Shown piece after piece: positions 301 through 61,364 of a stretch of DNA of 64,000 bases. The stretch comes from a virus. The notes beneath the pieces were generated by a model. That model saw nothing but the letters and a program-made list of their open reading frames with translations, did no database searches and was not told the origin of the DNA. Location: positions 1-64,000 of the IMG/VR virus record IMGVR_UViG_3300018080_000001, one strand, 5' to 3'. How positions within the stretch are numbered: the first letter of the stretch is position 1; the number at the start of each line of letters is the position of its first letter. The translations under genes were made by a program, and so were the position numbers.

Positions 301-1002
301 TTAGACATATGTACCTTGAATAATAACATTGGCAGTACACGTGGTTAGCCCCGCACCGGTATCAGCGGTTGTCACACGAATATGCAACGTGGCATTAGCC
401 GCAATAAGAGGTAAATCACCGGTAATAGCAATTACATGCTTTGTACCCACCGCTGTTAAACCCGTGAGTGTTGTTGCCGGAAGAATCTGGGTTCCACCCG
501 CCGCAGTACCAATAGTAATGGCAGCATCACCGTTAGGAACACCACCGGCCACCGCAGTTGTATCCACAAGAATGCGTGTGGGAATAAAATCATCAGTCAC
601 AACCCCACCAAGAGCACTGCTCGTGTCCGAAGCCGCACTAATGAGGTCTACAGCCTGGGTGGTACTCAACTGCTGATATGCGGGCGTTTCCAAGGCATCT
701 ATGATACCATCATCATCCGCATCATAATCGTCCTTGGGCATATCCCCGCCAACTTTCCAAGCGGTCATCTGCGCAGCAGTCAAAGTAACAGATCCTCGTG
801 TAACTGCTACCTTAGCCGATGTAATCCAAGACGAAAGAGTATCACAGAGAAGTGTATTTCCCTCTACCTGGTTCAGATTGATGTTCTCGGAGTTAGCGCC
901 TGTTGTGTGCCCAATGTCTAGTCGGGGGACTCCTTCATCCCCGACTAACGATAGAACCGTAGAAGTCCTATTAGTCACAGTAATATACGTGGGTAATGCC
1001 AT
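301..1002 (-). CDS. putative virion structural protein
   Basis: 233 residues, Ala/Thr/Val/Gly-rich and cysteine-poor. Residues about 93-101 (DADDDGIID) look like a calcium-binding EF-hand or thrombospondin-type loop. The last 90 residues are a predicted all-beta Thr/Ala/Gly segment of the kind common in phage fibre and decoration proteins. The start MALPTYITVTN has an AAGGAAGG-type ribosome site. The gene follows a 300-nt non-coding leader, so it probably opens a late transcript that also carries the gene at the left edge. Function is not recognised; the structural role is inferred. Confidence 0.8.
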   Translation of the reverse strand: MALPTYITVTNRTSTVLSLVGDEGVPRLDIGHTTGANSENINLNQVEGNTLLCDTLSSWITSAKVAVTRGSVTLTAAQMTAWKVGGDMPKDDYDADDDGIIDALETPAYQQLSTTQAVDLISAASDTSSALGGVVTDDFIPTRILVDTTAVAGGVPNGDAAITIGTAAGGTQILPATTLTGLTAVGTKHVIAITGDLPLIAANATLHIRVTTADTGAGLTTCTANVIIQGTYV

Positions 1003-1270: not shown

Positions 1271-1306
1271 AGACCCGAGTAGAAAATAGTAGAAACTACT
1301 CAGGTC
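1271..1306 (-). terminator. rho-independent terminator
   Basis: On the minus strand AGACCTGAGTAG pairs with CTACTCGGGTCT (one mismatch) across a 12-nt loop and is followed by TTTTATTT. The TGA stop of the gene at 1300-1563 sits inside the 5' arm. This looks like the end of the transcript carrying the small-gene array. Confidence 0.75.
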
Positions 1307-1563
1307 TTAGAGGGTATTCCAGCTCTTCCGCCGAGAATACGTGTAACATACTTATAATCTAGAGAATGGTCAACAGAATTGCTTATAAATAGGGAATAAA
1401 AAGTATACATGATTGTCTTGGGTGGATGCTTCCATACTTCCTTAGTTATATAATCAGAGAGATATATTTTAGAAACTTTACACAAAGTATATAAACTAAT
1501 GTGTATAAGTTCATTAAAGTCTTTATTAAATTTGTATCTAGTGTTTTCTCCTACAGATTTCAT
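1300..1563 (-). CDS. MKxxG-family small protein
   Basis: 87 residues starting MKSVGENTRYKF. It is the most distal member of the array whose proteins begin M-K-x-x-G. The body has regularly spaced Ile/Leu/Val residues (for example HISLYTLCKVSKIYLSDYI), the degenerate tetrad pattern of the family. Its stop codon is built into the terminator stem. No known domain; function unknown. Confidence 0.6.
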   Translation of the reverse strand: MKSVGENTRYKFNKDFNELIHISLYTLCKVSKIYLSDYITKEVWKHPPKTIMYTFYSLFISNSVDHSLDYKYVTRILGGRAGIPSKT

Positions 1564-1580
1564 TTTTTATGGAAGTCCTG

Positions 1581-1745
1581 TTAAATTTTTGTACACCGTG
1601 TCATAAATCGTATCATAGAATTCATCGTCTCTAATTTCAAATAACGCATAAGATATGCAGTTATCTCAGGAGAAATAAAAAACTCAAGTGAAGTATCAAA
1701 ATAAAAGAAGTCTTCTCTATCTATAATTTCACCCAGTACTTTCAT
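1581..1745 (-). CDS. MKxxG-family small protein
   Basis: 54 codons, MKVLGEIIDREDFF at the start, ending TRCTKI. It sits 2 nt after the next gene upstream and 17 nt before the following one, so it fits the tightly packed array. Assignment rests on the N-terminal signature and position. It looks shortened relative to the 65-85-residue siblings. Function unknown. Confidence 0.5.
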   Translation of the reverse strand: MKVLGEIIDREDFFYFDTSLEFFISPEITAYLMRYLKLETMNSMIRFMTRCTKI

Positions 1746-1747
1746 AA

Positions 1748-1984
1748 CTACAAATCTATAGTATCCTCAAGCAAATTACGTCCTAAAGGATACCCTATAA
1801 TACTCCAGATAAAAGTATTAAGAGATTCATAAATAGATCTAGAAATGCTAGCATGACTATCAAAATCTATTAAGCTAACTACATGGCATACATCTTTTAT
1901 CCATTTTAAAGCATTCTTATCTTTGTATTTAGAGTCATATCTACCTATAAAATTGTATGCAACAGCTTTACCCAAGTATTTCAT
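1748..1984 (-). CDS. MKxxGK-family small protein
   Basis: 78 residues, MKYLGKAVAYNF at the start. The segment around residues 46-64 (ISRSIYESLNTFIWSII) has a hydrophobic residue every fourth position, the degenerate form of the S-V tetrad repeat seen in pure form at 3.5-4.4 kb. No enzymatic motif; function unknown. Confidence 0.6.
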   Translation of the reverse strand: MKYLGKAVAYNFIGRYDSKYKDKNALKWIKDVCHVVSLIDFDSHASISRSIYESLNTFIWSIIGYPLGRNLLEDTIDL

Positions 1985-1988
1985 ATTA

Positions 1989-2219
1989 TCACCCGATATA
2001 ATTATAAATATGGGATAAAGTAGATAGTCTTATAAAATATGTTATTTCATCAAAATACCAATGTTTACTTATGAAATAAATTCTTACACTTCTAAAAACA
2101 TCCTCCTGCATGGACACTAGTACTAACTTACCCGCGACATCTTCATCCCAGAAACATAGAAACCAAATATTCTGGTACCCATCGGGTAAGTCCCTAACCG
2201 TGTCGCCCAAAATTTTCAT
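1989..2219 (-). CDS. MKxxG-family small protein
   Basis: 76 residues from the start MKILGDTVRDL, chosen because it restores the family N-terminus; the frame stays open upstream with another ATG at 2237. Aromatic-rich body with a tetrad-like stretch (VFRSVRIYFISKH). Function unknown. Confidence 0.55.
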   Translation of the reverse strand: MKILGDTVRDLPDGYQNIWFLCFWDEDVAGKLVLVSMQEDVFRSVRIYFISKHWYFDEITYFIRLSTLSHIYNYIG

Positions 2220-2221
2220 TA

Positions 2222-2437
2222 CTAAAATTCCCACCATATTATAGAATTAATATTACGACCACAGCACTCATAAATTAAAAAATCAACGGATCTTACGGAT
2301 ATATCCAAAAATATGGGAAAAACACTAGATACTATATTTTCGGATACCAAATATCTTATAGACTTAGTTGAAACTCGTGAAAAAGAAACCGACCCATATT
2401 CTATTTGCATAGCAAGTTTTTTACCTAATAATCTCAT
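2222..2437 (-). CDS. MKxxGK-family small protein
   Basis: 71 residues from MRLLGKKLAMQI; an in-frame ATG four codons upstream is possible, but the internal start matches the family signature and overlaps the stop of the preceding gene by 4 nt. The body contains SVFPIFLDISVRSVDFLI, with hydrophobics at about every fourth position. Function unknown. Confidence 0.55.
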   Translation of the reverse strand: MRLLGKKLAMQIEYGSVSFSRVSTKSIRYLVSENIVSSVFPIFLDISVRSVDFLIYECCGRNINSIIWWEF

Positions 2438-2649
2438 TCTATAATACAACCATTTCCTACCTGCAATTCAATAATATTTTCTACCCAGAAAAAAATCAAA
2501 GCACCAACTGTTTTATCTACAAAGACTTTTATAAGATAATAATAAATAAATTTAGAAACTGAAATATCAAAATAAAAATCAAGTTCATTAGCAAGTACGG
2601 AATTTTCGTACTCTAACTGTAAATCAAGCTCTTTACCAATAACCTTCAT
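2434..2649 (-). CDS. MKxxGK-family small protein
   Basis: 71 residues, MKVIGKELDLQLEYEN at the start; residues 4-15 resemble the next gene downstream (LGKKLAMQIEYGS), suggesting recent duplication. The body has a tetrad-like hydrophobic pattern (DISVSKFIYYYLIKVFV). The start codon lies inside the recurring intercassette DNA element. Function unknown. Confidence 0.6.
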   Translation of the reverse strand: MKVIGKELDLQLEYENSVLANELDFYFDISVSKFIYYYLIKVFVDKTVGALIFFWVENIIELQVGNGCIIE

Positions 2650-2683
2650 ATTTTACACTGCCTATACTTTCAGTCTAATTTTT
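2647..2683 (-). repeat. intercassette repeat, copy 1 of 5
   Basis: On the minus strand this reads AAATTAGACTGAAAGTAT then AGGCAGTGTAAAATATG, ending in the start codon of the next gene. Near-complete copies lie at 5229-5266 and 5759-5793, with partial ones at 4671-4690 and 4978-4997. Here the upstream gene terminates inside the element (…IRLKV, stop). The other copies are read in other frames, so the conservation is at DNA level. Confidence 0.7.
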
Positions 2684-2862
2684 ATCGTGTATTTTAAATC
2701 ATAAAAAAGATATTCATTTATACTACCAACTATACTAGCAGCTATAACTTTGTAGTATATATTCCAACAAAGTTCGTCTTCTACTTTATTAATAATAGTA
2801 TTAAAAACATGTCCACGAATACTTTCAATATCATATTTAATCAAATTACCCGAAGTTTTCAC
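2662..2862 (-). CDS. MKxxG-family small protein
   Basis: 66 residues, MKTSGNLIKYDIES at the start. The middle (VIAASIVGSINEYLFYDL) shows the four-residue hydrophobic period. The last six residues are encoded by the recurring intercassette element. It overlaps the preceding gene by 17 nt. Function unknown. Confidence 0.6.
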   Translation of the reverse strand: MKTSGNLIKYDIESIRGHVFNTIINKVEDELCWNIYYKVIAASIVGSINEYLFYDLKYTIKIRLKV

Positions 2863-3064
2863 GACTCTCCATCCTATAGTATATAGTCTGATATGTAAAA
2901 TCTGATAACGTATTAAATATTAACTCAGATATTCTAAGTGTTCTCCATTCCACAGGAAATCGAATATTCCACATAAGAGAAGAAGAAACATTGTCAGAAA
3001 CATACTTTTTTATTTCATGAGTATAGAACATGTCCAAAGACTTAGATTTTCCCATGGTTTTCAT
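2846..3064 (-). CDS. MKxxGK-family small protein
   Basis: 72 residues, MKTMGKSKSLDMFYTHEI at the start, with a tetrad-like segment KKYVSDNVSSSLMWNIRFPV (about residues 19-38). Part of the packed array. Function unknown. Confidence 0.6.
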   Translation of the reverse strand: MKTMGKSKSLDMFYTHEIKKYVSDNVSSSLMWNIRFPVEWRTLRISELIFNTLSDFTYQTIYYRMESRENFG

Positions 3065-3073
3065 AGTATTAAA

Positions 3074-3286
3074 TTACTTATTCAAAATAGCCCTAAATAT
3101 TAATCTTTGATATGGTTTTATAGAGTCTGCCCCAAACATATTAATATTCCTCCAAATACGATTTACCCAGCCTATTTTATATTTCAGCCGGTAGCAATCA
3201 TTAGTATGTCTATTATCCTGAAGAAATTCTTCATATAAATCTCTTTGCTTAATATTATTATCACATATTTTGCCGATATAAAGCAT
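3074..3286 (-). CDS. MxxxGK-family small protein
   Basis: 70 residues, MLYIGKICDNNIKQRD at the start: a variant N-terminus, since the second residue is Leu. The IGKICD string recurs as SGKICD in the zinc-ribbon protein at 15191-15475. The body is basic and aromatic without an obvious tetrad repeat. Function unknown. Confidence 0.55.
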   Translation of the reverse strand: MLYIGKICDNNIKQRDLYEEFLQDNRHTNDCYRLKYKIGWVNRIWRNINMFGADSIKPYQRLIFRAILNK

Positions 3287-3290
3287 AATA

Positions 3291-3518
3291 TTAATCCTCA
3301 GAAACCACTATATCCTGCTGATACAAAGGAATACTGGCAACAGGTTTCTCCGGACTAAGAATTATGGTAGAACTCGTGGTGCTCCTATATTCTCTACCAT
3401 TTAAAAAACACTCACAAGTACAATATGTTGAAGGATTTTCCTTACCCTCTATGTCAGTATAAAATGGACTTCCACAATGAGGGCACTGACCAATTTCTAG
3501 GATTCTCGCAGTAATCAT
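3291..3518 (-). CDS. zinc-ribbon-like small protein
   Basis: 75 residues. CPHCGSPFY (residues 12-20) and YCTCECF (about 32-38) supply two cysteine pairs for a probable zinc ribbon; the rest is Ser/Thr-rich. It lacks the M-K-x-x-G-K start of its neighbours although it lies within their array. Substrate or partner unknown. Confidence 0.6.
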   Translation of the reverse strand: MITARILEIGQCPHCGSPFYTDIEGKENPSTYCTCECFLNGREYRSTTSSTIILSPEKPVASIPLYQQDIVVSED

Positions 3519-3542
3519 GTTTATACCTCAAAATACTGTGTT

Positions 3543-3752
3543 TTATCCAAATGGTGACCATAATAAATGGTGTAACGAAGTACTTATTACAGATCTTACA
3601 GAATTCTCTGAAAAATCTGTTGCGACTGAATTACTAACTAAATTCCTAGCTGAGTATCTAACTGAATATCTAGAATACCTAACTAAATCACTAACGGAAT
3701 GCTTAACTGAATAATAAACTGAATTCCTAACTTGTTTTCCTATATTTTTCAT
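3543..3752 (-). CDS. MKxxGK protein with S-V tetrapeptide repeats
   Basis: 69 residues: MKNIGKQVRNSV, then about nine four-residue units of the form x-S-V-x (YYSV, KHSV, SDLV, YSVR). Its first 36 nt are identical to those of the gene at 4227-4427, so the two are recent duplicates at their 5' ends. Its start overlaps the stop of the preceding gene (ATGA). A regular four-residue period predicts an amphipathic rod or helix with one hydrophobic stripe. Function unknown. Confidence 0.6.
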   Translation of the reverse strand: MKNIGKQVRNSVYYSVKHSVSDLVRYSRYSVRYSARNLVSNSVATDFSENSVRSVISTSLHHLLWSPFG

Positions 3753-3961
3753 TTTACTATTGCATCTTCAGCTAAAGTCCAAACTAAATAACTAACTGAA
3801 TCCCAAACTGAATACCTAACTAAATTAACAACTGAATCACTAACTGAATTACTAACTGAATTACTAACTGAATTACTAACCAAATTCATAACTGAATCAC
3901 TAACTGAATCCTTAACTGAATCCCTTACTAACTCTTTAACACTCTTACCCACGGCTTTCAT
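3749..3961 (-). CDS. MKxxGK protein with S-V tetrapeptide repeats
   Basis: 70 residues: MKAVGKSVKELV, then a nearly perfect run of tetrads (RDSV, KDSV, SDSV, SNSV, SNSV, SDSV). The C-terminal 20 residues drift to YSVWDSVSYLVW and then a short acidic end. Both ends overlap neighbouring genes by 4 nt. No catalytic residues. Structural, membrane-active or packaged-protein roles are all possible; none is shown. Confidence 0.6.
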   Translation of the reverse strand: MKAVGKSVKELVRDSVKDSVSDSVMNLVSNSVSNSVSNSVSDSVVNLVRYSVWDSVSYLVWTLAEDAIVK

Positions 3962-4230
3962 TTTTCTGTACTTTCTTTAATTGAATTATAAAATAAAGCC
4001 CTAGCTGAGTAGCTAACTGAATCACTAACTGAATCCCAAACTGAATCAAAAACGGAATCACTAACTGAATCCCAAACTGAATCAAAAACGGAATCAAAAA
4101 CGGAATCACTAACTGAATCCCAAACTGAATACCAAACTGAATCCCAAACTGAATCCCAAACTGAATCACTAACTGAAACCCTAGCCGAATCCCCAACTAA
4201 ACCCGCAACACTCTTACCTATAATTTTCAT
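3958..4230 (-). CDS. MKxxGK protein with S-V tetrapeptide repeats
   Basis: 90 residues, the longest of the four repeat genes: MKIIGKSVAGLVGDSA, then about 15 tetrads (VWDS, VSDS, VFDS), ending LFYNSIKESTEK. The Trp/Phe/Tyr position makes one face strongly aromatic. Another open frame overlaps it only because the 12-bp repeat lacks stops. Function unknown. Confidence 0.6.
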   Translation of the reverse strand: MKIIGKSVAGLVGDSARVSVSDSVWDSVWDSVWYSVWDSVSDSVFDSVFDSVWDSVSDSVFDSVWDSVSDSVSYSARALFYNSIKESTEK

Positions 4231-4427
4231 TGTTCTATATTTTCTTTAAATGAAGGACTAACTGAATACAAAACTGAATTCCTAACTGAATTCCTAACTG
4301 AAGACAAAACTGAATACCAAACTAAATTCCAAACTGAAACTCTAACTAAATTAACAACTGAATCAATAACTGAATTCCTAACTGAATACCTAACTGAATT
4401 CCTAACTTGTTTTCCTATATTTTTCAT
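4227..4427 (-). CDS. MKxxGK protein with S-V tetrapeptide repeats
   Basis: 66 residues: MKNIGKQVRNSVRYSV, then about 12 tetrads with Arg, Trp and Leu in the variable places. It opens the run of four repeat genes and shares its first 36 nt with the gene at 3543-3752. Function unknown. Confidence 0.6.
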   Translation of the reverse strand: MKNIGKQVRNSVRYSVRNSVIDSVVNLVRVSVWNLVWYSVLSSVRNSVRNSVLYSVSPSFKENIEQ

Positions 4428-4439
4428 TTTATTAAGACC

Positions 4440-4673
4440 TCATAAATTTTTATTAAAATATATATCGTGAAAGATATATTCGAAATGAGTACTACTGGGT
4501 ATAGCCCTTTCCACAAGACTCTTGATTTTATTATAAATATCTATATTTACCTTTAATATAGGATTGGTTATATAAAGTATACCCAGAGCACCAACTGTAT
4601 GAGTACTCTCATACGCAAAAATCTTAATAGCTTGATCGCAGACATTAATTTTTGTCAATCCTAAATCCTTCAT
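4440..4673 (-). CDS. small paralogue A (MKDLGL start)
   Basis: 77 residues, MKDLGLTKINVCDQAIKI. It is clearly paralogous to the gene at 4993-5232 along its whole length (MKDLGL; TxGxxxxxxxxLPLKIDIY-like; VS/IPSSTxxEYxxxDIxF), a pair that differs from the tetrad members. Its start lies in the intercassette DNA element. Function unknown. Confidence 0.6.
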   Translation of the reverse strand: MKDLGLTKINVCDQAIKIFAYESTHTVGALGILYITNPILKVNIDIYNKIKSLVERAIPSSTHFEYIFHDIYFNKNL

Positions 4674-4685
4674 ATTTTACACTGC

Positions 4686-4934
4686 CTATATTTCAAAATA
4701 AGCTACCCATGTATCAAGCACAATTTCCAAATTCATAAAAATAAAATCATTGATATTATTCCAGATAATTATTTCCAGGGGCTCTGTAAGAGCATATTCT
4801 ATAGCACAAACCAAAGTAGTCTTACCCGCCTCAACACACAATGCATCGACCATGCTCCAAATACCATGTTTATAGTCATTGGTTACAAAGTATGTATCTA
4901 TGTAATCTTTTCTATTTTTTCCTAAGTGTTTCAC
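4686..4934 (-). CDS. MKxxGK-family small protein
   Basis: 82 residues, MKHLGKNRKDYIDTYF at the start. The middle contains VEAGKTTLVCAIEYAL, which resembles but does not satisfy a P-loop (see rejected list). C-terminal half is hydrophobic (NDFIFMNLEIVLDTWVAYF). Flanked by paralogues A on both sides. Function unknown. Confidence 0.55.
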   Translation of the reverse strand: MKHLGKNRKDYIDTYFVTNDYKHGIWSMVDALCVEAGKTTLVCAIEYALTEPLEIIIWNNINDFIFMNLEIVLDTWVAYFEI

Positions 4935-4992
4935 GTTATATAATATACCGTATTAACTTTATCAAGTATTTTATACTCCACATATATTCAGT

Positions 4993-5232
4993 CTAATTTT
5001 TTTCATCAGTATATAAACTAAAAAATATATCATAAACTGTAGCCTCTAAATATGTAAAAGAACTAACACGCTCTTTTAATTTTTCTTCAACCTCTTCATA
5101 TATATCTATCTTCAAGGGCAAATAAGTATTGACTACAAACATAAAACCCAGAGTAGAATTATAGTTCCAATGCGGAACTATCTTAACACCATTATCATGA
5201 ATATACGTAGATACTAGTCCTAAATCCTTCAT
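4993..5232 (-). CDS. small paralogue A (MKDLGL start), second copy
   Basis: 79 residues, MKDLGLVSTYIHDNGVKI; paralogue of 4440-4673 with the same order of motifs. It ends DEKN, with the stop TAG inside a partial copy of the intercassette element. The duplicated pair flanks one unrelated cassette. Function unknown. Confidence 0.6.
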   Translation of the reverse strand: MKDLGLVSTYIHDNGVKIVPHWNYNSTLGFMFVVNTYLPLKIDIYEEVEEKLKERVSSFTYLEATVYDIFFSLYTDEKN

Positions 5233-5266
5233 ATTCTATACTGCCTATACTTTCAGTCTAATTTTT
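5229..5266 (-). repeat. intercassette repeat, copy at 5.2 kb
   Basis: Nearly identical to the copy at 2647-2683 (one C/T change near the start codon). Here it is read as LD then TGA for the gene at 5253-5417, a different frame from the first copy. It supplies the upstream region and ATG of the gene at 4993-5232. Confidence 0.7.
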
Positions 5267-5417
5267 CATATAAATCTTCAGTAATCAAAGTTGCTTCATA
5301 TAAACTACCGCCTTCTGAGATTGTAAATAGCATTATCCTTATTTCAACCCGAGTATTCATGTAATCTTCAGTACGAACATGATCAGTTATACTAATTCTG
5401 TTTCCTGGTTTTTTCAT
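5253..5417 (-). CDS. MKxxG-family small protein
   Basis: 54 codons, MKKPGNRISITDHVRTED, ending YEKLD inside the intercassette element. The K-x-P-G-N-x-x start is shared with the gene at 6425-6640 (KTPGNSV). Short but well placed between neighbours. Function unknown. Confidence 0.5.
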   Translation of the reverse strand: MKKPGNRISITDHVRTEDYMNTRVEIRIMLFTISEGGSLYEATLITEDLYEKLD

Positions 5418-5421
5418 TATA

Positions 5422-5613
5422 CTAAGACTGGTTTTTATCTTTATTCAAACCTGATAATTTACTATTAAAATTTTCAGTTTCTTTTTCAATTTCGTTTACA
5501 ATATTTTTTGTAATTATTCTATTTTTACGAATGCTAAAACCTAAAAAAATAACAACAAATATCTGAACAAATAAAAATAAAAAACTAAACAATTCTAAAT
5601 AGCTTCGCATCAC
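5422..5613 (-). CDS. single-pass membrane protein
   Basis: 62-63 residues; GTG (5613) or ATG (5610) start behind AGGAGG. Residues about 7-26 (LFSFLFLFVQIFVVIFLGFS) form one transmembrane helix, followed by a basic RKNR stop-transfer and a polar, probably coiled C-terminus with Glu/Lys/Asn. This topology fits a small holin- or spanin-like inner-membrane protein, but there is no sequence-level support for lysis. It directly follows a second, frame-interrupted membrane gene. Confidence 0.6.
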   Translation of the reverse strand: MMRSYLELFSFLFLFVQIFVVIFLGFSIRKNRIITKNIVNEIEKETENFNSKLSGLNKDKNQS

Positions 5614-5761
5614 TTAAAAACCTCCTAACAATTTTTTGTAATCCTTTTCACATTTTCTTCTAATAAATCTATACTCTTGGTAGAATCTTATAAATATATA
5701 CACAAGAGTACTATAAAAAAGAAAAATACAAATAAAAAAAAATAATTAAAAATAAATCCAT
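5614..5761 (-). pseudogene. membrane protein gene interrupted at a T9 run
   Basis: ATG at 5761 gives MDLFLIIFF and soon a stop. One base fewer in the run of nine T (minus strand) would join this to ICIFLFYSTLVYIFIRFY…, a 48-codon protein with one hydrophobic helix and a basic tail ending KLLGGF. That frame ends exactly at the start of the next gene, whose AGGAGG lies inside its last codons. Either a homopolymer sequencing error, a real pseudogene, or programmed slippage. Its start lies in the intercassette repeat. Confidence 0.5.
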
Positions 5762-5793
5762 ATTTTACACTGCCTATACTTTCAGTCTAATTT
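5759..5793 (-). repeat. intercassette repeat, copy at 5.8 kb
   Basis: Same sequence as the copy at 2647-2683 over about 33 nt. Here the upstream gene (5787-5945) ends EN then TAG in a third frame, and the ATG at the end starts the interrupted membrane gene. Confidence 0.7.
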
Positions 5794-5945
5794 TCCCAGA
5801 GATCTCTATACATTAAAGATTTGTTCCTTGCTATACTACACTTTAGTTCAATATGTATATGAATATATGCAGAAATTGAATTTGTTATATGCTTAGAAGT
5901 AGAAATATAAAAAGGAGGAGATACTTTTTTTCCCAGTGTTTTCAT
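5787..5945 (-). CDS. MKxxGK-family small protein
   Basis: 52 residues, MKTLGKKVSPPFYIST. Residues about 17-33 (SKHITNSISAYIHIHIE) have Ile every fourth position. It ends within the intercassette repeat. Function unknown. Confidence 0.5.
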   Translation of the reverse strand: MKTLGKKVSPPFYISTSKHITNSISAYIHIHIELKCSIARNKSLMYRDLWEN

Positions 5946-6054
5946 TTTTCAAGTTTGCTTTCAAATTCAAATAAAAAATCTCATGCCATTGTTCTGGTGA
6001 CAAAGCTCTGTTTTTATTTCTATGTTCTTCGTCATCAATTTTCCTCGTAGACAC
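5893..6054 (-). CDS. doubtful 53-codon frame overlapping its neighbour
   Basis: A GTG-started frame with protein-like composition (SPEQWHEIFYLNLKANLK) fills the gap 5946-6060 and runs into the next gene in another frame. It has no ribosome site and is in frame with the stop of the preceding gene, so it may be a decayed remnant. Confidence 0.22.
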   Translation of the reverse strand: MSTRKIDDEEHRNKNRALSPEQWHEIFYLNLKANLKNENTGKKSISSFLYFYF

Positions 6055-6424: not shown

Positions 6425-6640
6425 TCACAGTACATCCTCTATTAGTTTATTCTTAATTACAACGCCAATGCTTTCAACATGCCCCCAAACTGATCCCCAC
6501 GAAGAACTACTAACTGGTCTATAAACTACGCGCGAAACACAATCCTTAATTACAAAATTCAAATTCATTGGTCTGTAGTGCCCTATATGATGTATGATAT
6601 CTCGAACAGAATTACCCGGTGTTTTCAACTTAGCTTCCAT
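6425..6640 (-). CDS. MKxxG-family small protein
   Basis: 71 residues with ATG at 6640; a TTG at 6628 would give (M)KTPGNSVRDIIHHIG, restoring the family N-terminus, and may be the true start. The middle keeps spaced Val/Ile residues (DCVSRVVYRPVSSSSWGSVW). Separated from the main array by one gene. Function unknown. Confidence 0.5.
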   Translation of the reverse strand: MEAKLKTPGNSVRDIIHHIGHYRPMNLNFVIKDCVSRVVYRPVSSSSWGSVWGHVESIGVVIKNKLIEDVL

Positions 6641-6848: not shown

Positions 6849-7280
6849 TTACGTGGCATACAATGTATCCAGTCTCTCCATCATTAAGCTCTCATCCATT
6901 TGTGCAGCTTCTTCCTGCGTCATCTCTTCAGTTACCACGCGGTTAACCAATTCAAAGTCATTGGGATTCAAGTCTTGTCCAAATTCATCTTTTACCTCTA
7001 GATTATATAGAATATTGCCTTCTTCCGTCTCCAGTGCATGTACGTTAATCCATCTATCGCCCGGAGATGGTGGAAACTTCTCATTCTCAAAAGGTCCGTA
7101 TAACGAAACTTTTGCCGCTATATCTTCTAAGTATGCAGGTTCCGGGGTGGCCTCAACACCCACTTCTGTTCCTTCCGGAGTTTCAAGTTCATATTCAATT
7201 GAAACTAAAAAAGGAAGACCTTCAACTGGTTTGTCCAACGCTTGGGCTATCCTTTTCATTCCTTTGTCCGATATACTCAT
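6849..7280 (-). CDS. acidic protein with ISDxGxKRxA N-terminus, probable virion-associated
   Basis: 143 residues. MSISDKGMKRIAQAL matches the first 17 residues of 8415-8858 and 8919-9185 (GISDAGLKRVAKII). The remainder is acidic and proline-containing with a beta-rich centre (YNLEVKDEFGQDLN) and a helical Glu/Met-rich end. It lacks the A/G-Q-E that ends the peptide in its relatives. Function inferred as packaged or structural. Confidence 0.65.
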   Translation of the reverse strand: MSISDKGMKRIAQALDKPVEGLPFLVSIEYELETPEGTEVGVEATPEPAYLEDIAAKVSLYGPFENEKFPPSPGDRWINVHALETEEGNILYNLEVKDEFGQDLNPNDFELVNRVVTEEMTQEEAAQMDESLMMERLDTLYAT

Positions 7281-7285
7281 GGCTT

Positions 7286-7687
7286 TTAACTTTCTGCCGC
7301 CGCTAGTTCTAGCACGGACTCTATAGAAAAATAAAGAAGTGCACTAAATTTGTCCATAACCACATTTAATAAACCGCTATTATAATAAGTTTCTATAACA
7401 TCATTAGACAAACTTAAAAAATCTTGTGCCTCCGTATAAGACATATAAGATTGTTCCCATTCTTTCTTCCATAAACTCTCTATTTCAACTCTAACAAAAT
7501 TCCAAGCATCCAATATAGAAAACCAATAAATCCGTGTATGCTGTAAACCATTTATAATTGCGCTGTCATAAATAAATTTTAAAAAAACATTGCGGTCCAG
7601 AACCTTACGCCAAGAAGCATCCTTGTTATATAAGTCATCGCGCCAATCATTTACTAACTTGCTTACAGATTTACCCAGTTTCCTCAT
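7286..7687 (-). CDS. larger MKxxGK-type protein
   Basis: 133 residues, MRKLGKSVSKLVNDWRDDL. The first 15 residues carry the family signature and the start of an S-V tetrad, but the rest is a larger helical, Trp/Tyr-rich domain without repeats. This is the longest carrier of the signature and shows that the N-terminus can be attached to unrelated bodies. Function unknown. Confidence 0.6.
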   Translation of the reverse strand: MRKLGKSVSKLVNDWRDDLYNKDASWRKVLDRNVFLKFIYDSAIINGLQHTRIYWFSILDAWNFVRVEIESLWKKEWEQSYMSYTEAQDFLSLSNDVIETYYNSGLLNVVMDKFSALLYFSIESVLELAAAES

Positions 7688-8414: not shown

Positions 8415-8858
8415 TTATTTCAAACCAAAATATTCCATGGGCTCCATACCAGAACCTTGTGCATCTTCGTACTCACTCATAAAATTATCGGCCATGACTT
8501 GTGCAGCTTCTTGACGAACAGGAACTGGAAATAATTTATGCCAAGGTAGATCGTAACCCTCTAATTGCTGTGCCCACATTTTTGCACCGGCTTCAGCCAA
8601 GTACATCCATATCCTTGGGGCCAGAGATGCATCATAAGTACCCTTCGTTAGTTTACGTATCAAATTCTTTTGTATAGATTTCTTCTGTCCATATAGCTCA
8701 TAGGTATTGTCAATATAGAGTACAAGGTCTTCTGCATCCGGCATATCCTCGGCTTCTTCTTCCATCGTCATTTCAGGTTCCGTAAGTTCTTCTTCCTGCC
8801 CTTTTATAATTTTTGCAACTCTTTTTAGACCTGCATCTGATATTCCTTTGGCTTTCAT
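8415..8858 (-). CDS. probable virion-associated protein with N-terminal targeting-like peptide
   Basis: 147 residues. MKAKGISDAGLKRVAKIIKG is almost identical to the N-terminus of 8919-9185, and KGQE at 19-22 fits a small-x-Glu prohead-protease site. After an acidic linker (EEELTEPEMTMEEEAED) comes a helical domain (residues 45-130). The leader before the ATG is shared with 8919-9185. The packaging role is inferred by analogy with T4 internal proteins; the body is not recognised. Confidence 0.65.
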   Translation of the reverse strand: MKAKGISDAGLKRVAKIIKGQEEELTEPEMTMEEEAEDMPDAEDLVLYIDNTYELYGQKKSIQKNLIRKLTKGTYDASLAPRIWMYLAEAGAKMWAQQLEGYDLPWHKLFPVPVRQEAAQVMADNFMSEYEDAQGSGMEPMEYFGLK

Positions 8859-8918: not shown

Positions 8919-9185
8919 TTATAAATTCCTTCTATCTATTTCTTCCCACTTACCATAAGAGCTGCCACCATGATACCAAGCTTTTGCATTGTCATCGAAC
9001 AATTTTATATCTTCCCAAGAAGATATCGGTACCTCATAGAGCTGATTATCTTCTATCCACGTCATTTTTAATCTCGGTTTACGATATGATACATCTTCTT
9101 CTTGCATGGTATCATCAGCTTCTTGAGCTTTTACAACGTTTGCAACCCGTTTTAAACCCTCATCCGATATTCCCCTGGCTTTCAT
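8919..9185 (-). CDS. probable virion-associated protein, C-terminus frame-interrupted
   Basis: 88 residues. MKARGISDEGLKRVANVVKA then QEADD: the shared N-terminal peptide with KAQE at 19-22. The body (about 30-85) is short and Trp-rich. Just past the stop, another frame encodes EFIKIFKKNTLIIKIL, which resembles the C-terminal tails of 9201-9473 (EFLTYFHDTMLRT) and 9481-10311 (LEAFKKNSLRTRV). An indel near the 3' end may have cut off this tail. Confidence 0.6.
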   Translation of the reverse strand: MKARGISDEGLKRVANVVKAQEADDTMQEEDVSYRKPRLKMTWIEDNQLYEVPISSWEDIKLFDDNAKAWYHGGSSYGKWEEIDRRNL

Positions 9186-9200
9186 TGCTCTACACTCCTG

Positions 9201-9473
9201 CTACAGTGAAAATGTCCTCAACATTGTATCATGGAAATAAGTTAGAAATTCTTCTTTGTGTGCATTCCAATTTTCTATCAACTCTTGACCCAAGCCACCG
9301 GAAGGCTCAATACCGTACTCGGTAAAAAAAGCAAAAAGCGCGTCGTCTAACATGCTCCCCAATTCCTGAGTACGATAAACCGCGTCTTTGTCCTGCACAG
9401 CGGCATCTCCTTGCGCGGTAATAATTTTAGCTAATTTTTCAATTCCTTCGGTGGATAAACCTTTGAGTTTCAT
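9201..9473 (-). CDS. probable virion-associated small protein
   Basis: 90 residues. MKLKGLSTEGIEKLAKIIT then AQGDA: a diverged copy of the shared N-terminal peptide (A-Q-G instead of A-Q-E). C-terminal EFLTYFHDTMLRTFSL resembles the tails of neighbouring genes. A GGAG-containing leader precedes the next gene. Function unknown. Confidence 0.6.
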   Translation of the reverse strand: MKLKGLSTEGIEKLAKIITAQGDAAVQDKDAVYRTQELGSMLDDALFAFFTEYGIEPSGGLGQELIENWNAHKEEFLTYFHDTMLRTFSL

Positions 9474-10592: not shown

Positions 10593-10817
10593 TATCTCAG
10601 ATGGCTTTCCATATTGCATATACGCATATATTTTATCACTGACCTTTACTTCAATTATAGAAGGACAACCATCGGTTTCCAAATCAAAAATCTTGGCGTA
10701 AACAATTTCCAAGTCTTTTATACTGCCGTGCATTTTCTCGTGTTTTATGGCAGCACCTTCCGTCCAAAAACCTCGGCCGCAACCCTTACATTTCCAACAT
10801 TTCGTTTCTATAGGCAT
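10590..10817 (-). CDS. C2H2 zinc-finger protein
   Basis: 75 residues. Residues 11-31 form C-x2-C-x12-H-x3-H (CKGCGRGFWTEG…KHEKMH), a classical C2H2 finger, rare in phages and usually involved in nucleic-acid or protein contact. The C-terminal 45 residues are a small beta-rich segment. It overlaps the preceding gene by 10 nt. Confidence 0.7.
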   Translation of the reverse strand: MPIETKCWKCKGCGRGFWTEGAAIKHEKMHGSIKDLEIVYAKIFDLETDGCPSIIEVKVSDKIYAYMQYGKPSEI

Positions 10818-10996
10818 CTTGTATCCTCTTTTATTTTACGTTTTACTAAATTCCTAAGATCTATAAATAGATATTGTGGTTTTTCCATAGAAAAATAAAT
10901 ATAATTCCTTAAATTTTCCTGAACCTCTGTAGCAAGATAAGGATAATGTTCAAAAATAGCACCAAAAAACTTCTTTGACCTTCCCAAGATTTTCAT
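10808..10996 (-). CDS. MKxxG-family small protein (dispersed copy)
   Basis: 62 residues, MKILGRSKKFFGAIFEHY. Hydrophobics every fourth residue in ATEVQENLRNYIYFSM (about 22-37) place it in the tetrad family. It is away from the main array, between a zinc finger and an unknown gene. Function unknown. Confidence 0.55.
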   Translation of the reverse strand: MKILGRSKKFFGAIFEHYPYLATEVQENLRNYIYFSMEKPQYLFIDLRNLVKRKIKEDTRCL

Positions 10997-11467: not shown

Positions 11468-11877
11468 TTTAAAAGTATATCCTTATCCAATAAACATCTT
11501 CGGTACTCCTCTAAAGAGAGTCCACTTTGTTCTCTTACAAAATTACGTACTGCTTTTTTCGTTATACTCCAAGTACCTGTTATTATATTCTGATGGCCTT
11601 TTAATCTTCTCTCACTTAAGTATCTTCTAACTGTTCTATCCGGAATATCCAGTATCTTGGCTACTTGCCCACTACTATAATATTCTTTCTCCTCACCTTT
11701 TAGCTCTAGTTCAAGTTTAGTGGCTCTTTTCTCTATATAATCAAGCTTCTTTAATAAGAATAAAGCCAAACACTTCCAACAATACCATTTGCCATCATAT
11801 ACTTGACCGGAAAATGCTTTGTACTTTTCTGAAGTAGTATTCTCGCACTTACAGCATCTAACTATTTGATCCACCAT
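11464..11877 (-). CDS. zinc-ribbon and MerR/excisionase-type HTH protein
   Basis: 137 residues. CCKCENT (8-14) and WYCWKCLA (about 31-38) form a zinc ribbon; a short coiled segment follows. Residues 66-112 (YYSSGQVAKILDIPDRTVRR…LSERRLKG) are a MerR/excisionase-like winged HTH (helix-turn-helix IPDRTVRRYL). Probably a DNA-binding regulator; the target is unknown. Confidence 0.7.
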   Translation of the reverse strand: MVDQIVRCCKCENTTSEKYKAFSGQVYDGKWYCWKCLALFLLKKLDYIEKRATKLELELKGEEKEYYSSGQVAKILDIPDRTVRRYLSERRLKGHQNIITGTWSITKKAVRNFVREQSGLSLEEYRRCLLDKDILLK

Positions 11878-12061
11878 ATAAATCCTCCAACAAAATACTT
11901 TTCAAAGAATTTTTTATCCCATTAGTATTACGCCACACAATATCATATACAAGATTCCCTATTTCGACTCGAATATGTCTTTCTACTTTATCCTGAAGAT
12001 TTAAAGAATGACATATATTAGTATCAACTTCATTATTAATCGTTTTTCCTATACATCTCAT
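11858..12061 (-). CDS. MKxxGK-family small protein (dispersed copy)
   Basis: 67 residues, MRCIGKTINNEVDTNICHSL. The stretch VERHIRVEIGNLVYDIVW has I/V every fourth residue, the family tetrad. Overlaps neighbours by 20-26 nt. Function unknown. Confidence 0.55.
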   Translation of the reverse strand: MRCIGKTINNEVDTNICHSLNLQDKVERHIRVEIGNLVYDIVWRNTNGIKNSLKSILLEDLYGGSNS

Positions 12062-16199: not shown

Positions 16200-16394
16200 T
16201 CACAAATTTTCTCGTATTGTATAAAATATAATCCAACAAATTCTTAGTTTTATTATCGGTGTAACAACATTTAAAACACTATCGTTAAGAAAAAAATATA
16301 ATGATCTAGTAATATCAATTTTCAAATTAAATGGACTGAGATTGAAGCCCTCATAAAAAGAAAAATCTCTTAATTCTTTTCCCAAAGATTTCAT
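16200..16394 (-). CDS. MKxxGK-family small protein (dispersed copy)
   Basis: 64 residues from MKSLGKELRDFSFYEGF; start chosen for the family N-terminus and because the ATG overlaps the upstream stop. DITRSLYFFLNDSVLNVV has hydrophobics every fourth residue. Function unknown. Confidence 0.55.
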   Translation of the reverse strand: MKSLGKELRDFSFYEGFNLSPFNLKIDITRSLYFFLNDSVLNVVTPIIKLRICWIIFYTIRENL

Positions 16395-57651: not shown

Positions 57652-58050
57652 TTACTCTTCCTCAAAAATGGACTTGTCTACATACTTCATAGCGTCTTTA
57701 TTCTGTTTCACAGCTTCTATACAAATCTCAGGAATTTTATTTTTTACGTGTATACGTGCACGACCATCCTTCTTTACAGCTTCCATACAAATCTCTGGTG
57801 TTTGGTTTTGTACGTATTTAAGTGCCCAACCATCCTTCTTTACAGCTTCCATACAAATCTCTGGTGTTTGGTTTTGTACGTATTTAAGTGCCCAACCATT
57901 TTGTTCTACAGCAGCCATACAAATCTCTGGTGTTTGGTTTTGTATATACCTAAGCGCACAGCCATCCGCTCTCACAGCTTTTAAATCTTTCTCCTCTTGA
58001 GTTTCAGTTTCAAGAACTCCTACCTTCTTACAAAATTCACTAAACTTCAT
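57652..58050 (-). CDS. 22-residue repeat protein (DUF4116-like), 4 repeats
   Basis: 132 residues. N-terminal MKFSEFCKKVGVLETE…EEKDLKAV, then four 22-residue units with the core QNQTPEICM, and a divergent last unit ending SIFEEE. Predicted pairs of short helices, as in the DUF4116 family. One of three paralogues here; the third unit pair is almost identical at DNA level. Likely a protein-binding solenoid. Confidence 0.7.
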   Translation of the reverse strand: MKFSEFCKKVGVLETETQEEKDLKAVRADGCALRYIQNQTPEICMAAVEQNGWALKYVQNQTPEICMEAVKKDGWALKYVQNQTPEICMEAVKKDGRARIHVKNKIPEICIEAVKQNKDAMKYVDKSIFEEE

Positions 58051-58064
58051 TTTTTACTCCAGTA

Positions 58065-58463
58065 TTATTCTTCCTCAAAAATGGACTTGTCTACATATCT
58101 CGTAACATCTTTATTCTGTTTCACAGCTGCTATACAAATCTCTGGAGTTTGGTTTTGTATATATTGAAGCGCCCAACCATTCTGTTTCACAGCAGCCATA
58201 CAAATCTCTGGAGTTTGGTTTTGTACATATTGAAGTGCATGACCATTCTGTTTCACAGCAGCCATACAAATCTCTGGAGTTTGGTTTTGTATATATTGAA
58301 GTGCATGACCATCCTTCTTTACAGCAGCCATACAAATCTCTGGTGTTTGATTTTGTACGTATTCAAGTGCCCAACCATCCTGTTTTACAGCTTTTAAATC
58401 TTTCTCCTCTTGAGTCCCAGTATCAGGAGCTTCTACCATTTTACAAAATTCGCTAAATTTCAT
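58065..58463 (-). CDS. 22-residue repeat protein (DUF4116-like), 4 repeats
   Basis: 132 residues from MKFSEFCKMVEAPDTG (GGAGGAAGAA before it; an earlier ATG at 58475 is less likely). Four complete QNQTPEIC units and the same SIFEEE end as its siblings. Confidence 0.7.
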   Translation of the reverse strand: MKFSEFCKMVEAPDTGTQEEKDLKAVKQDGWALEYVQNQTPEICMAAVKKDGHALQYIQNQTPEICMAAVKQNGHALQYVQNQTPEICMAAVKQNGWALQYIQNQTPEICIAAVKQNKDVTRYVDKSIFEEE

Positions 58464-58477
58464 TTCTTCCTCCAAAA

Positions 58478-58762
58478 TTATTCTTTGTAACCATAAGGAT
58501 CTACGATCACTTCCTCTGAATCATTCTCGTCCAATATTTTTTCCATACGATTAAGTAAGCTACGAGAAATATAAATACGGTGCAAACCCACTTCAAAGCT
58601 CAACAATACCCCTTCCTCCGGAGCCGGTTTACCAAACCCAGCTCCAGCACCTCTGATAGGACATACTAAAGTATCAGATTTATCTACTCTCTTCACCGTT
58701 ATTAGAGGTGATTTTGATTTCCTTATATTTAGATCTTCGTATTTTGTTCTTTCGTAACCCAT
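58478..58762 (-). CDS. hypothetical protein between repeat genes
   Basis: 94 residues, MGYERTKYEDLNIRKSK. Contains Pro/Gly loop (RGAGAGFGKPAPEEG) and a helix. Sits between two repeat genes, so it may work with them. No family recognised. Confidence 0.5.
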   Translation of the reverse strand: MGYERTKYEDLNIRKSKSPLITVKRVDKSDTLVCPIRGAGAGFGKPAPEEGVLLSFEVGLHRIYISRSLLNRMEKILDENDSEEVIVDPYGYKE

Positions 58763-58781
58763 TTTATCTCTCCTTTTTTAT

Positions 58782-59972
58782 TTACTCTTCTTCAAAAATA
58801 GACTTATACACGTACTTCATAGCACCTTTATTCTGTTTCACAGCTTCTATACAAATCTCTGTAGTTTGGTTTTGTACGTATTTAAGTACGTAACCATTTT
58901 GTTTTACAGCTGCCATACAAATCTCTGGTGTTTGGTTTTGTACAAATTCAAGTGCCCAACCATCCTGCTTTACAGCTGCCATACAAATCTCTGGAGTTTG
59001 GTTTTGTACAAATTCAAGTACCCAACCATTTTGTTTTACAGCTTCTATACAAATCTCTGGTGTTTGGTTTTGTACGTACTTAAGTACCATACCATCCTGC
59101 TTTACAGCTGCTATACAAATCTCTGGTGTTTGATTTTGTACGTATTTAAGTGCGTAACCATTTTGTTTTACAGCTGCCATACAAATCTCTGGAGTTTGGT
59201 TTTGTACGTATTTAAGTGCGTAACCATTTTGTTTTACAGCTGCTATACAAATCTCTGGTGTTTGGTTTTGTACGTATTTAAGTGCCCAACCATCCCGCTT
59301 TACAGCTTCTATACAAATCTCTGGTGTTTGGTTATGTACGTATTGGAGTACGTAACCATTCTGCCTTACAGCTTCCATACAAATCTCTGGTGTTTGGTTT
59401 TGTATATATTCAAGTACCATACCATCCTGCTTTACAGCTGCCATACAAATCTCTGGAGTTTGGTTTTGTACAAATTCAAGTACCCAACCATTTTGTTTTA
59501 CAGCTGCCATACAAATCTCTGGAGTTTGGTTTTGTATATGTCGAAGTGCATAACCATTCTGTTTTACAGCTTCTATACGAATCTCTGGAGTTTGATTTTG
59601 TACATATACAAGTGCATAACCATCCTGCTTTACAGCTGCCATACAAATCTCTGGTGTTTGGTTTTGTATATATTCAAGTACCATACCATCCTGCTTTACA
59701 GCTGCCATACAAATCTCTGGAGTTTGATTTTGTACATATACAAGTACCCAACCATTTTGTTTTACAGCTGCCATACAAATCTCTGGTGTTTGGTTTTGTA
59801 TATATTCAAGTGCGTAACCATTTTGTTTTACAGCTTCTATACAAATCTCTGGTGTTTGATTTTGTACGTATTGGAGTGCCCAACCATTTTGTTTTACAGC
59901 TTTTAAATCTTTCTCCTCTTGAGTTTCAGTCTCAGGAGCTTCCACCTTCTTACAAAATTCACTAAATTTCAT
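58782..59972 (-). CDS. long 22-residue repeat protein (DUF4116-like), 16 repeats
   Basis: 396 residues from MKFSEFCKKVEAPETE (GGGAGGAAAAA leader; the frame is open to 60020). Sixteen 22-residue units of G-[WYM]-x-L-x-[YF]-[VI]-Q-N-Q-T-P-E-I-C-[MI]-x-A-V-[KR]-x-[ND], then a divergent unit ending SIFEEE. Almost all variation is at five exposed positions. It forms a long helical solenoid and would bind a ligand or protein. The 346-codon frame on the other strand is a shadow. Confidence 0.75.
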   Translation of the reverse strand: MKFSEFCKKVEAPETETQEEKDLKAVKQNGWALQYVQNQTPEICIEAVKQNGYALEYIQNQTPEICMAAVKQNGWVLVYVQNQTPEICMAAVKQDGMVLEYIQNQTPEICMAAVKQDGYALVYVQNQTPEIRIEAVKQNGYALRHIQNQTPEICMAAVKQNGWVLEFVQNQTPEICMAAVKQDGMVLEYIQNQTPEICMEAVRQNGYVLQYVHNQTPEICIEAVKRDGWALKYVQNQTPEICIAAVKQNGYALKYVQNQTPEICMAAVKQNGYALKYVQNQTPEICIAAVKQDGMVLKYVQNQTPEICIEAVKQNGWVLEFVQNQTPEICMAAVKQDGWALEFVQNQTPEICMAAVKQNGYVLKYVQNQTTEICIEAVKQNKGAMKYVYKSIFEEE

Positions 59973-60025
59973 TTTTTCCTCCCAATTTTCCAACATTTCA
60001 TCAACTCTCATACTGTTCATAAATC

Positions 60026-60569: not shown

Positions 60570-61364
60570 TCATTCACCCCAAATATGAACATTATCAATT
60601 GACCAATCATAATTATCATTCCCTGTGTATTGAAAAATAATTCTGAATATATTTTTATCTAACCAAAGATACCGATCTAAATCGTGTACTTGATCTTCTC
60701 CATTACTAAAGGTAAAACTCTGTCTAATAACCCAATTGGGCTCTAATCCGGAGAATTGAACACCCACATTAGCAATATCATCAGAAGATTCTGGATCATC
60801 ATCATAATCATGTTCATACTCCAGTATTACCTTGTCGCAACCTGTCGCATCCAACCATGGAGATGCTAGTCTTACAGAAATTTTAGTACCAGATTCTTCT
60901 GAAGAAACTTCCATATAATACTCAGAAAAAATATTCAAACATTCCCAATTCCCCGTAGTATCCCATCCTGAAGAAAAACAATTACTAAAATTATCAAAAA
61001 ACTCTAAATTACAAATATCTCCTGTATCACTGTCTGTATCAGAATCTACGTCACTATCAGTATCACTGTCTGTATCACTGTCTGTATCACTGTCTGTATC
61101 ACTGTCTGTATCACTGTCTGTATCACTGTCTGTATCACTGTCAGTATCACTGTCTGTATCACTGTCTGTATCACTGTCTGTATCACTGTCTGTATCACTG
61201 TCTGTATCAGAATCTACGTCACTATCTGTATCGCTATCCGAATCTCCGTCTACATCAGAATCAACATCAGCATCAGAATCTCCCCCATCTTCCACAATAA
61301 AAGAAGAAGCCTCTTCTCCGCAGCCAAAAACCATAAAAACACAAAAAATAGTTATATAACGCAT
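60570..61364 (-). CDS. surface lipoprotein with (SD/DT) repeats
   Basis: 264 residues. Signal [15 protein letters not shown] with lipobox VFGC, Cys15. Residues about 27-117 are Asp/Ser/Asp-Thr repeats (DSDT) from 12-bp DNA units. The C-terminal domain (about 118-264) begins [13 protein letters not shown] and is a beta-sandwich of the MAM/CUB-like type with two Cys. Reads like a host cell-surface protein and unlike a replication gene. Own promoter at 61408-61435. Confidence 0.7.
61020..61215 (-). repeat. 12-bp coding tandem repeat (DSDT)
   Basis: Units of plus-strand TGTATCACTGTC repeat nearly perfectly over about 190 bp, in frame in the lipoprotein gene. Copy number is likely variable by slippage. 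Confidence 0.85.

Follow-up and report, generated by a model that had tools for sequence, protein, structure and literature searches.

A diversified array of small tetrad-repeat genes in a phage genome and its genomic linkage to DUF6745 and RQGD

Array genes and their shared start

The stretch analyzed here, called the window, comprises bases 1-64000 (64,000 nucleotides) of the IMG/VR virus record IMGVR_UViG_3300018080_000001, which is 170,099 bp long and is termed G000 where it is compared with other IMG/VR records (G001-G007, G014 and G042). On its minus strand, the window carries a tight array of small genes with an MKxxGK-type start, some of which consist of tetrads, i.e., four-residue repeats of the SVxx type. 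With about 60 paralogues, the array forms a massively diversified family of tetrad-repeat proteins encoded as stand-alone genes. Since the first 123 bases of the record are identical to its last 123 (a terminal repeat), the record was treated as circular (about 169,976 bp) and the array blocks at both record ends as one region. Phage-family matches were obtained for the replication genes (DNA polymerase, recombinase and a DnaB-like helicase). No close relative of the record was detected in a DNA search of GenBank phages, and searching IMG/VR with the DNA polymerase gave no relatives either. The G+C content at 2-6 kb is low (29-30%).

An earlier note, made from the sequence alone, had described about 17 genes with a shared start at 1.3-5.9 kb. 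Among the minus-strand open reading frames (ORFs) of 50-150 aa at 1290-5960, 17 of 21 have an M[KR]xxG start within their first six start codons, compared to 13/69 elsewhere on the minus strand, dispersed members included, and 0/104 on the plus strand. The number therefore holds for this range but is too low for the family, as the record has about 36 further copies at 153.6-169.0 kb. Two genes within the range are not members (3291-3518, cysteine-rich; 5422-5613, membrane-like).

All member genes in the window are encoded on the minus strand; in order of position, with p values for period 4 of the single body given in brackets, they begin with MKSVGENTRYKF (1300-1563, 87 aa), MKVLGEIIDRED (1581-1745, 54 aa), MKYLGKAVAYNF (1748-1984, 78 aa; p=0.033), MKILGDTVRDLP (1989-2219, 76 aa), MRLLGKKLAMQI (2222-2437, 71 aa; p=0.041) and MKVIGKELDLQL (2434-2649, 71 aa), which has a 4-nt overlap with the next gene. 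The member MKTSGNLIKYDI (2662-2862, 66 aa) uses a GTG start, and its diverged body has V/I/L at each fourth residue (permutation p<0.001). It is followed by MKTMGKSKSLDM (2846-3064, 72 aa; p=0.011) and MLYIGKICDNNI (3074-3286, 70 aa), the sole copy without K or R at position 2. The four almost pure tetrad genes of the earlier note are present at 3543-4427, namely MKNIGKQVRNSVYYSV (3543-3752, 69 aa), MKAVGKSVKELVRDSV (3749-3961, 70 aa; 4-nt ATGA overlap), MKIIGKSVAGLVGDSA (3958-4230, 90 aa; almost pure SVxD tetrads) and MKNIGKQVRNSVRYSV (4227-4427, 66 aa). Beyond them lie MKDLGLTKINVC (4440-4673, 77 aa), which is similar to MKDLGLVSTYIH (4993-5232, 79 aa), then MKHLGKNRKDYI (4686-4934, 82 aa; GTG start, p<0.001), MKKPGNRISITD (5253-5417, 54 aa) and MKTLGKKVSPPF (5787-5945, 52 aa). 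Dispersed relatives were also found as described before: MKTPGNSVRDII (6425-6628, 67 aa; TTG start, p=0.001), MRKLGKSVSKLV (7286-7687, 133 aa; an LGKSV start, with a longer body that lacks period 4), MKILGRSKKFFG (10808-10996, 62 aa), MRCIGKTINNEV (11858-12061, 67 aa; p=0.044) and MKSLGKELRDFS (16200-16394, 64 aa; p<0.001).

Genome-wide, 59 members were collected, which form one region of the circular map that runs from 153.6 kb across the join to 16.4 kb. Among these 59, codon 2 encodes K in 54, codon 4 encodes L, I or V in 50, and codon 6 encodes K in 39. Copies were selected for Gly5, so its invariance is no evidence; its wobble base, however, varies (GGA 35, GGT 19, GGC 4, GGG 1), and this freedom indicates conservation at the protein rather than the DNA level. 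At 23 junctions in G000 the stop and start codons overlap, 19 by 4 nt (ATGA) and four by 1 nt, and the recurrent C-terminal "...RGIK" of the tetrad genes directly abuts the ATGA at which the following gene overlaps. This layout suggests translational coupling.

The array proteins tested had no credible match in Pfam, PHROGs, NCBIfam or PADLOC, anti-phage and anti-defence models included, and a tblastn search of phages with one tetrad protein gave no match. Thus, the array matches no described family or system, in agreement with the earlier note, which had called it a cassette array and knew of no described family with this layout.

Period of four in the protein bodies

Tetrad proteins account for 18 members (alignment A2), and their start itself lies in tetrad register (MKTL-GKPV-RNSV). 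The general form MK-x(0-7)-[LI]-G-[KNE]-[SP]-V, in the same register, is found in the tetrad members and loosely in the diverged ones. V/I/L autocorrelation was compared with shuffles in 40 non-tetrad bodies, a set which leaves out 7286-7687; the z scores at lags 4, 8, 12 and 16 were 10.3, 7.8, 6.0 and 3.7, respectively. Ser/Thr periodicity was not detected in the same 40 bodies, and chopped control proteins showed no period 4 in the V/I/L lag test. Mean spectral power of the bodies was elevated around periods of 3.9-4.2 and for the harmonic at 2.0, whereas it was at control level at 3.6. Tested singly, 12 of 41 non-tetrad members had p<0.05. As a group, the non-tetrad bodies look like decayed tetrad repeats and belong mostly to one family, and the hydrophobic position at every fourth residue is apparently kept by selection.

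These results do not support two proposals of the earlier note. One is a mobile N-terminal module on different bodies: period 4 is kept exactly across the bodies taken together, and the start is in tetrad register. The other, a one-sided hydrophobic helix, does not follow from such a repeat, as four residues correspond to 400 degrees in an alpha helix and the hydrophobic stripe consequently drifts by 40 degrees per tetrad. AlphaFold2 (AF2) predicted one long helix for the tetrad protein 4227-4427 (predicted local distance difference test, pLDDT, 87; predicted template modelling score, pTM, 0.46) with 18 repetitive sequences as input, which may be the default outcome for repeats. A comparison of this model with viral folds gave no match.

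The internal proteins of phage T4 (IPI-III) are several small, variable proteins that share a short constant N-terminus, a targeting peptide whose protease site ends in Glu. The array shares the constant start on small variable proteins but differs in its repeat bodies, in its far higher copy number and in that no cleavage motif was seen. If the array proteins were likewise packaged and injected, their start would be a capsid-targeting tag and their bodies would function in the next host; a large set of small, variable proteins that all begin with the same short sequence does fit that class. We consider this very unlikely, since a start in repeat register together with a group-wide period of 4 does not describe a tag on unrelated cargo, no conserved, cleavage-site-like Glu follows the start, and the linkage to DUF6745 and RQGD reported below would be left unexplained. 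A separate set of proteins with an ISDxGxxRIAK start (e.g., MKAKGISDAGLKRVAKIIKGQE and MSISDKGMKRIAQAL) is encoded in the window at 6849-7280, 8415-8858, 8919-9185 and 9201-9473, and the same start occurs at record 89587-90039 and 91693-92130, some members being near virion-type genes. Compared to the MKxxGK start, this one better resembles a genuine N-terminal tag carried by unrelated bodies.

Tandem-tetrapeptide proteins have been described in mycobacteriophages (Tweety gp54, Che8 gp57, PMC gp51), with 12-bp units varying in number and no function given (PMC2884959). The tetrad genes of G000 resemble them in being tandem tetrapeptides built from 12-bp units; in the Tweety type, however, AA-type tetrads (AA[GWQ][SY] in Tweety) form one long gene, while G000 has no AA and a gene array. 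The copy-number differences between related mycobacteriophages (PMC2884959), the near-identical 12-bp units and the repeated starts and ends in G000 would all be expected if 12-bp slippage and unequal crossing over had multiplied mini-genes with little selected function, the long overlapping ORFs in other frames being by-products. Such an expansion at the DNA level alone is nevertheless quite unlikely: about 60 genes have stayed open, many with overlapping ends, the start is kept at the protein level with a free Gly wobble, the V/I/L period is retained where the Ser period is lost, and, as shown in the following section, the same layout with a specific partner module recurs in several largely unrelated phages.

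Other paralogous or repeat-containing genes were noted in the record. Paralogues with common DAxITxGTxAGGTQILPAT stretches (window 301-1002 and record 169122-170025) flank the record join between two array blocks. Three genes of tandem DUF4116-like repeats (Pfam PF13475), the longest with 16 stretches, lie at window 57652-60020, and a lipoprotein-like ORF with a long DSDT repeat at 60570-61364. Five paralogues of about 525 aa, mostly in tandem and starting with MKTVTLTNKSSNTLSFPNFYI or similar, are found at record 130249-139501 (L012).

Arrays in other phages and the DUF6745/RQGD module

IMG/VR was scanned with tetrad DNA. The arrays counted are those among the matches listed, more exist, and the many matches that were simple low-complexity frames of the SVSV type were excluded. 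The earlier note had staked its reading on relatives with the same start in other genomes, and G001 (282 kb, locus L131) indeed carries them in the same layout: 40 array genes by strict motif, in three arrays at 133.8-136.0, 148.2-150.5 and 155.6-159.7 kb, start with MKTKIKLGK[SP]V or MKEVITPRIRLGKSV, one with MKNLGNSI, and 24 of 39 junctions have 4-nt overlaps. Tetrad genes start with MTLKDSVYNSV in G003 (L082) and with MNNSxIxKAVxDSV or MNKINDSV in G002, G004 and G005 (L132, L086, L080). Pattern searches of IMG/VR with the start were less productive, as a tandem MKxxGK pattern gave nine chance matches, some within one long gene, and a stricter start-plus-tetrad pattern gave 12 matches with no array among them; one of the 12 records (L268) holds a DUF6745 with internal tetrads.

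In a protein comparison which covered G002, G003 and G005 in part, G000 and the other array phages have nearly no proteins in common beyond DUF6745 (Pfam PF20530) and one unknown protein, and DUF6745 is the only protein shared by G003 and G002 in the fetched parts. G000 and G001 additionally share a DNA methylase and two helicase-type proteins. The methylase gene (PF01555; L014:5353-6087, record 159352-160086) lies between the two DUF6745 genes of G000; its product matches methyltransferase models, is not an array member, and is 41% identical to the G001 methylase at 143.7 kb, about 4 kb from one G001 array. It possibly belongs to the same region type.

G000 encodes two tetrad-less DUF6745 proteins inside the array region, at record 157960-158892 and 160601-161311. 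The tetrad scan is blind to DUF6745; even so, among the matches listed, five of the six other records with at least five stand-alone tetrad genes encode this family (G001-G005), compared to 0/40 viral records that have neither tetrad arrays nor a tetrad-bearing DUF6745. The 40 control records are non-random, as they were picked by matches to other repeat or start patterns. Fisher's exact test by hand gives about 4e-6 for the matches listed, and about 8e-5 when relatives are pooled into three clades, in which the starts of G006 place it in the G002 group. The DUF6745 match of G003 is weak and falls under the Pfam cut-off, but the protein is 50% identical to that of G002. In GenBank, tblastn detected DUF6745 in 11 of 50,697 phage records.

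The DUF6745 proteins of the array phages contain no tetrads. Other phages have tetrads (DSV, SSL, DQL) within DUF6745 itself, between the N-terminal region and a YGQH core, and in the fetched flanks of these no stand-alone tetrad ORF was found; the seeming exceptions G014 and G042 are of this kind. The array tetrad proteins themselves do not match PF20530. SVxx tetrads were also observed inside DUF6745-free protein types (MCKFFSF..., YKLAHPDGWDF...) in L032, L048, L079, L093, L108, L126 and L127, and the array phages as fetched encode no homologue of the L032-type or L093-type proteins. An AF2 model of DUF6745 (pLDDT 83, pTM 0.72) gave no match to PDB folds at E<=0.001, and a literature search on DUF6745 found nothing.

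Synteny revealed a second gene of the module, encoding an unnamed protein of about 105 aa which we call RQGD. Its pattern is RQGDVLI...GEVTGHxHxV...HEEHxxIxLPxGxYxVxRQREY...VAD, with Q, G, D and four His (HxH...HxxH) invariant in alignment A4, so that a metal protein is possible; no match was found in Pfam, NCBIfam or PDB. RQGD adjoins DUF6745 in G001, G002, G003, G005, the phage Ma-LMM01, MW202476, prophiGD102-1 and two actinobacteria, and lies about 3.5 kb from DUF6745 in G000 (record 154100-154411). It is also present in 11 phage loci with tetrads inside DUF6745 and in further actinobacterial loci. When whole records were searched with an RQGD profile, all 12 records with DUF6745 were positive and all 21 that lack DUF6745 were negative. 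We conclude that the genomic linkage of the arrays to the DUF6745/RQGD module is well supported.

The actinobacterial pair adjoins STM4015, STM4014, STM4013 and STM4012, among which are a radical-SAM protein and one with weak similarity to RimK. Together with the four invariant His of RQGD and a constant start before a variable remainder, this neighborhood could hint at precursor peptides, with MKxLGK as leader and a variable core modified by RQGD as a possible metal enzyme. Such a role appears highly improbable, as the repeat spans the leader as well as the core, no motif of a core or a cleavage site was seen, and the phage modules show no modifying enzyme apart from RQGD.

A repeat component possibly supplied in trans

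In prophiGD102-1 gp38 and MW202476 UOF77368.1, both DUF6745 proteins with internal tetrads, the tetrad type (xx[SQ][VL]) and the partner gene are those of the array, but the repeat forms part of a single protein, where it precedes the conserved YGQH core, whereas G000 has dozens of separate repeat genes and a tetrad-less DUF6745. The counterpart of the array proteins would be this insert upstream of the core. The existence of fused and split forms points to an array that supplies the repeat component of the DUF6745/RQGD module in trans, the leading candidate, which we would nevertheless stop short of calling probable. In this mechanism, the small proteins would correspond to the segment that other phages hold inside DUF6745, would dock through their constant ends on the tetrad-less DUF6745/RQGD pair by physical interaction, and would present interchangeable variable surfaces. 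Speculatively, the complex might target rapidly changing host factors inside infected cells, in host interaction or counter-defence, and variants might have multiplied because host targets change fast. The full three-part system, with RQGD and DUF6745 as fixed core, up to about 60 tetrad-repeat subunits as exchangeable recognition surfaces and a fused single-repeat version elsewhere, is a more doubtful proposition.

Ma-LMM01, which was reached solely via DUF6745, offers a comparison. It encodes a tetrad-less DUF6745 (gp174), RQGD (gp175) and, as gp137-gp157, about 21 small paralogues which, like those of G000, form a tight, mostly abutting or overlapping array with constant ends. Their sequence (MKIINSNxWAPR...FYYRL...YFxED) is different and their period 4 is weak (z 3.9 at lag 4, none at lag 8). 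The array may thus be analogous rather than homologous to that of G000. In the Ma-LMM01 transcriptome, gp054-gp063 make up the early class, and head proteins and the sheath are among the products of five late genes (PMC5780444); by exclusion from both classes, array and module are probably middle genes.

Several observations weigh against a repeat component acting with DUF6745. Ma-LMM01 has module and array, but its paralogues are not SV tetrads, so that the predicted layout fits while homology is not thereby established. Most non-tetrad members of G000 individually lack a significant period 4, and tetrads are not exclusive to DUF6745, as the two DUF6745-free protein types (L032-like and L093-like) hold them. 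No module was detected in G006 (five tetrad genes, 48-kb record) or G007 (two genes), and in G001 it lies 10-37 kb from the arrays. Further, the near-identical DUF6745 genes of G002, G004 and G005 represent one lineage, which leaves about four independent lineages including G000.

The array genes could instead encode peptides for counter-defence or host takeover that act on their own against individual targets, the genes merely lying near DUF6745 in an accessory region. Clustered small unknown genes of low G+C with diversified sequences would agree with this, as would the DNA methylase among the G000 arrays and about 4 kb from one G001 array. We regard it as unlikely, since the fused form in other phages and the common period 4 would remain unexplained, and the analogous array of Ma-LMM01, with gp054-gp063 as its early class (PMC5780444), is not early.

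For the trans-supplied repeat component, what appears new is the architecture; DUF6745 and tetrapeptide repeats were already known as uncharacterized, and the mechanism is a proposal. Nevertheless, "hypothetical" phage mini-genes hereby gain a first testable place, with a partner module common to actinobacteria and large phages and with natural fused and split forms, and the mycobacteriophage tetrapeptide-repeat proteins, described in 2007 without function, gain a wider context. If the split form works as proposed, phages would maintain a permanent library of exchangeable protein subunits, a further route to diversify a host-facing complex.

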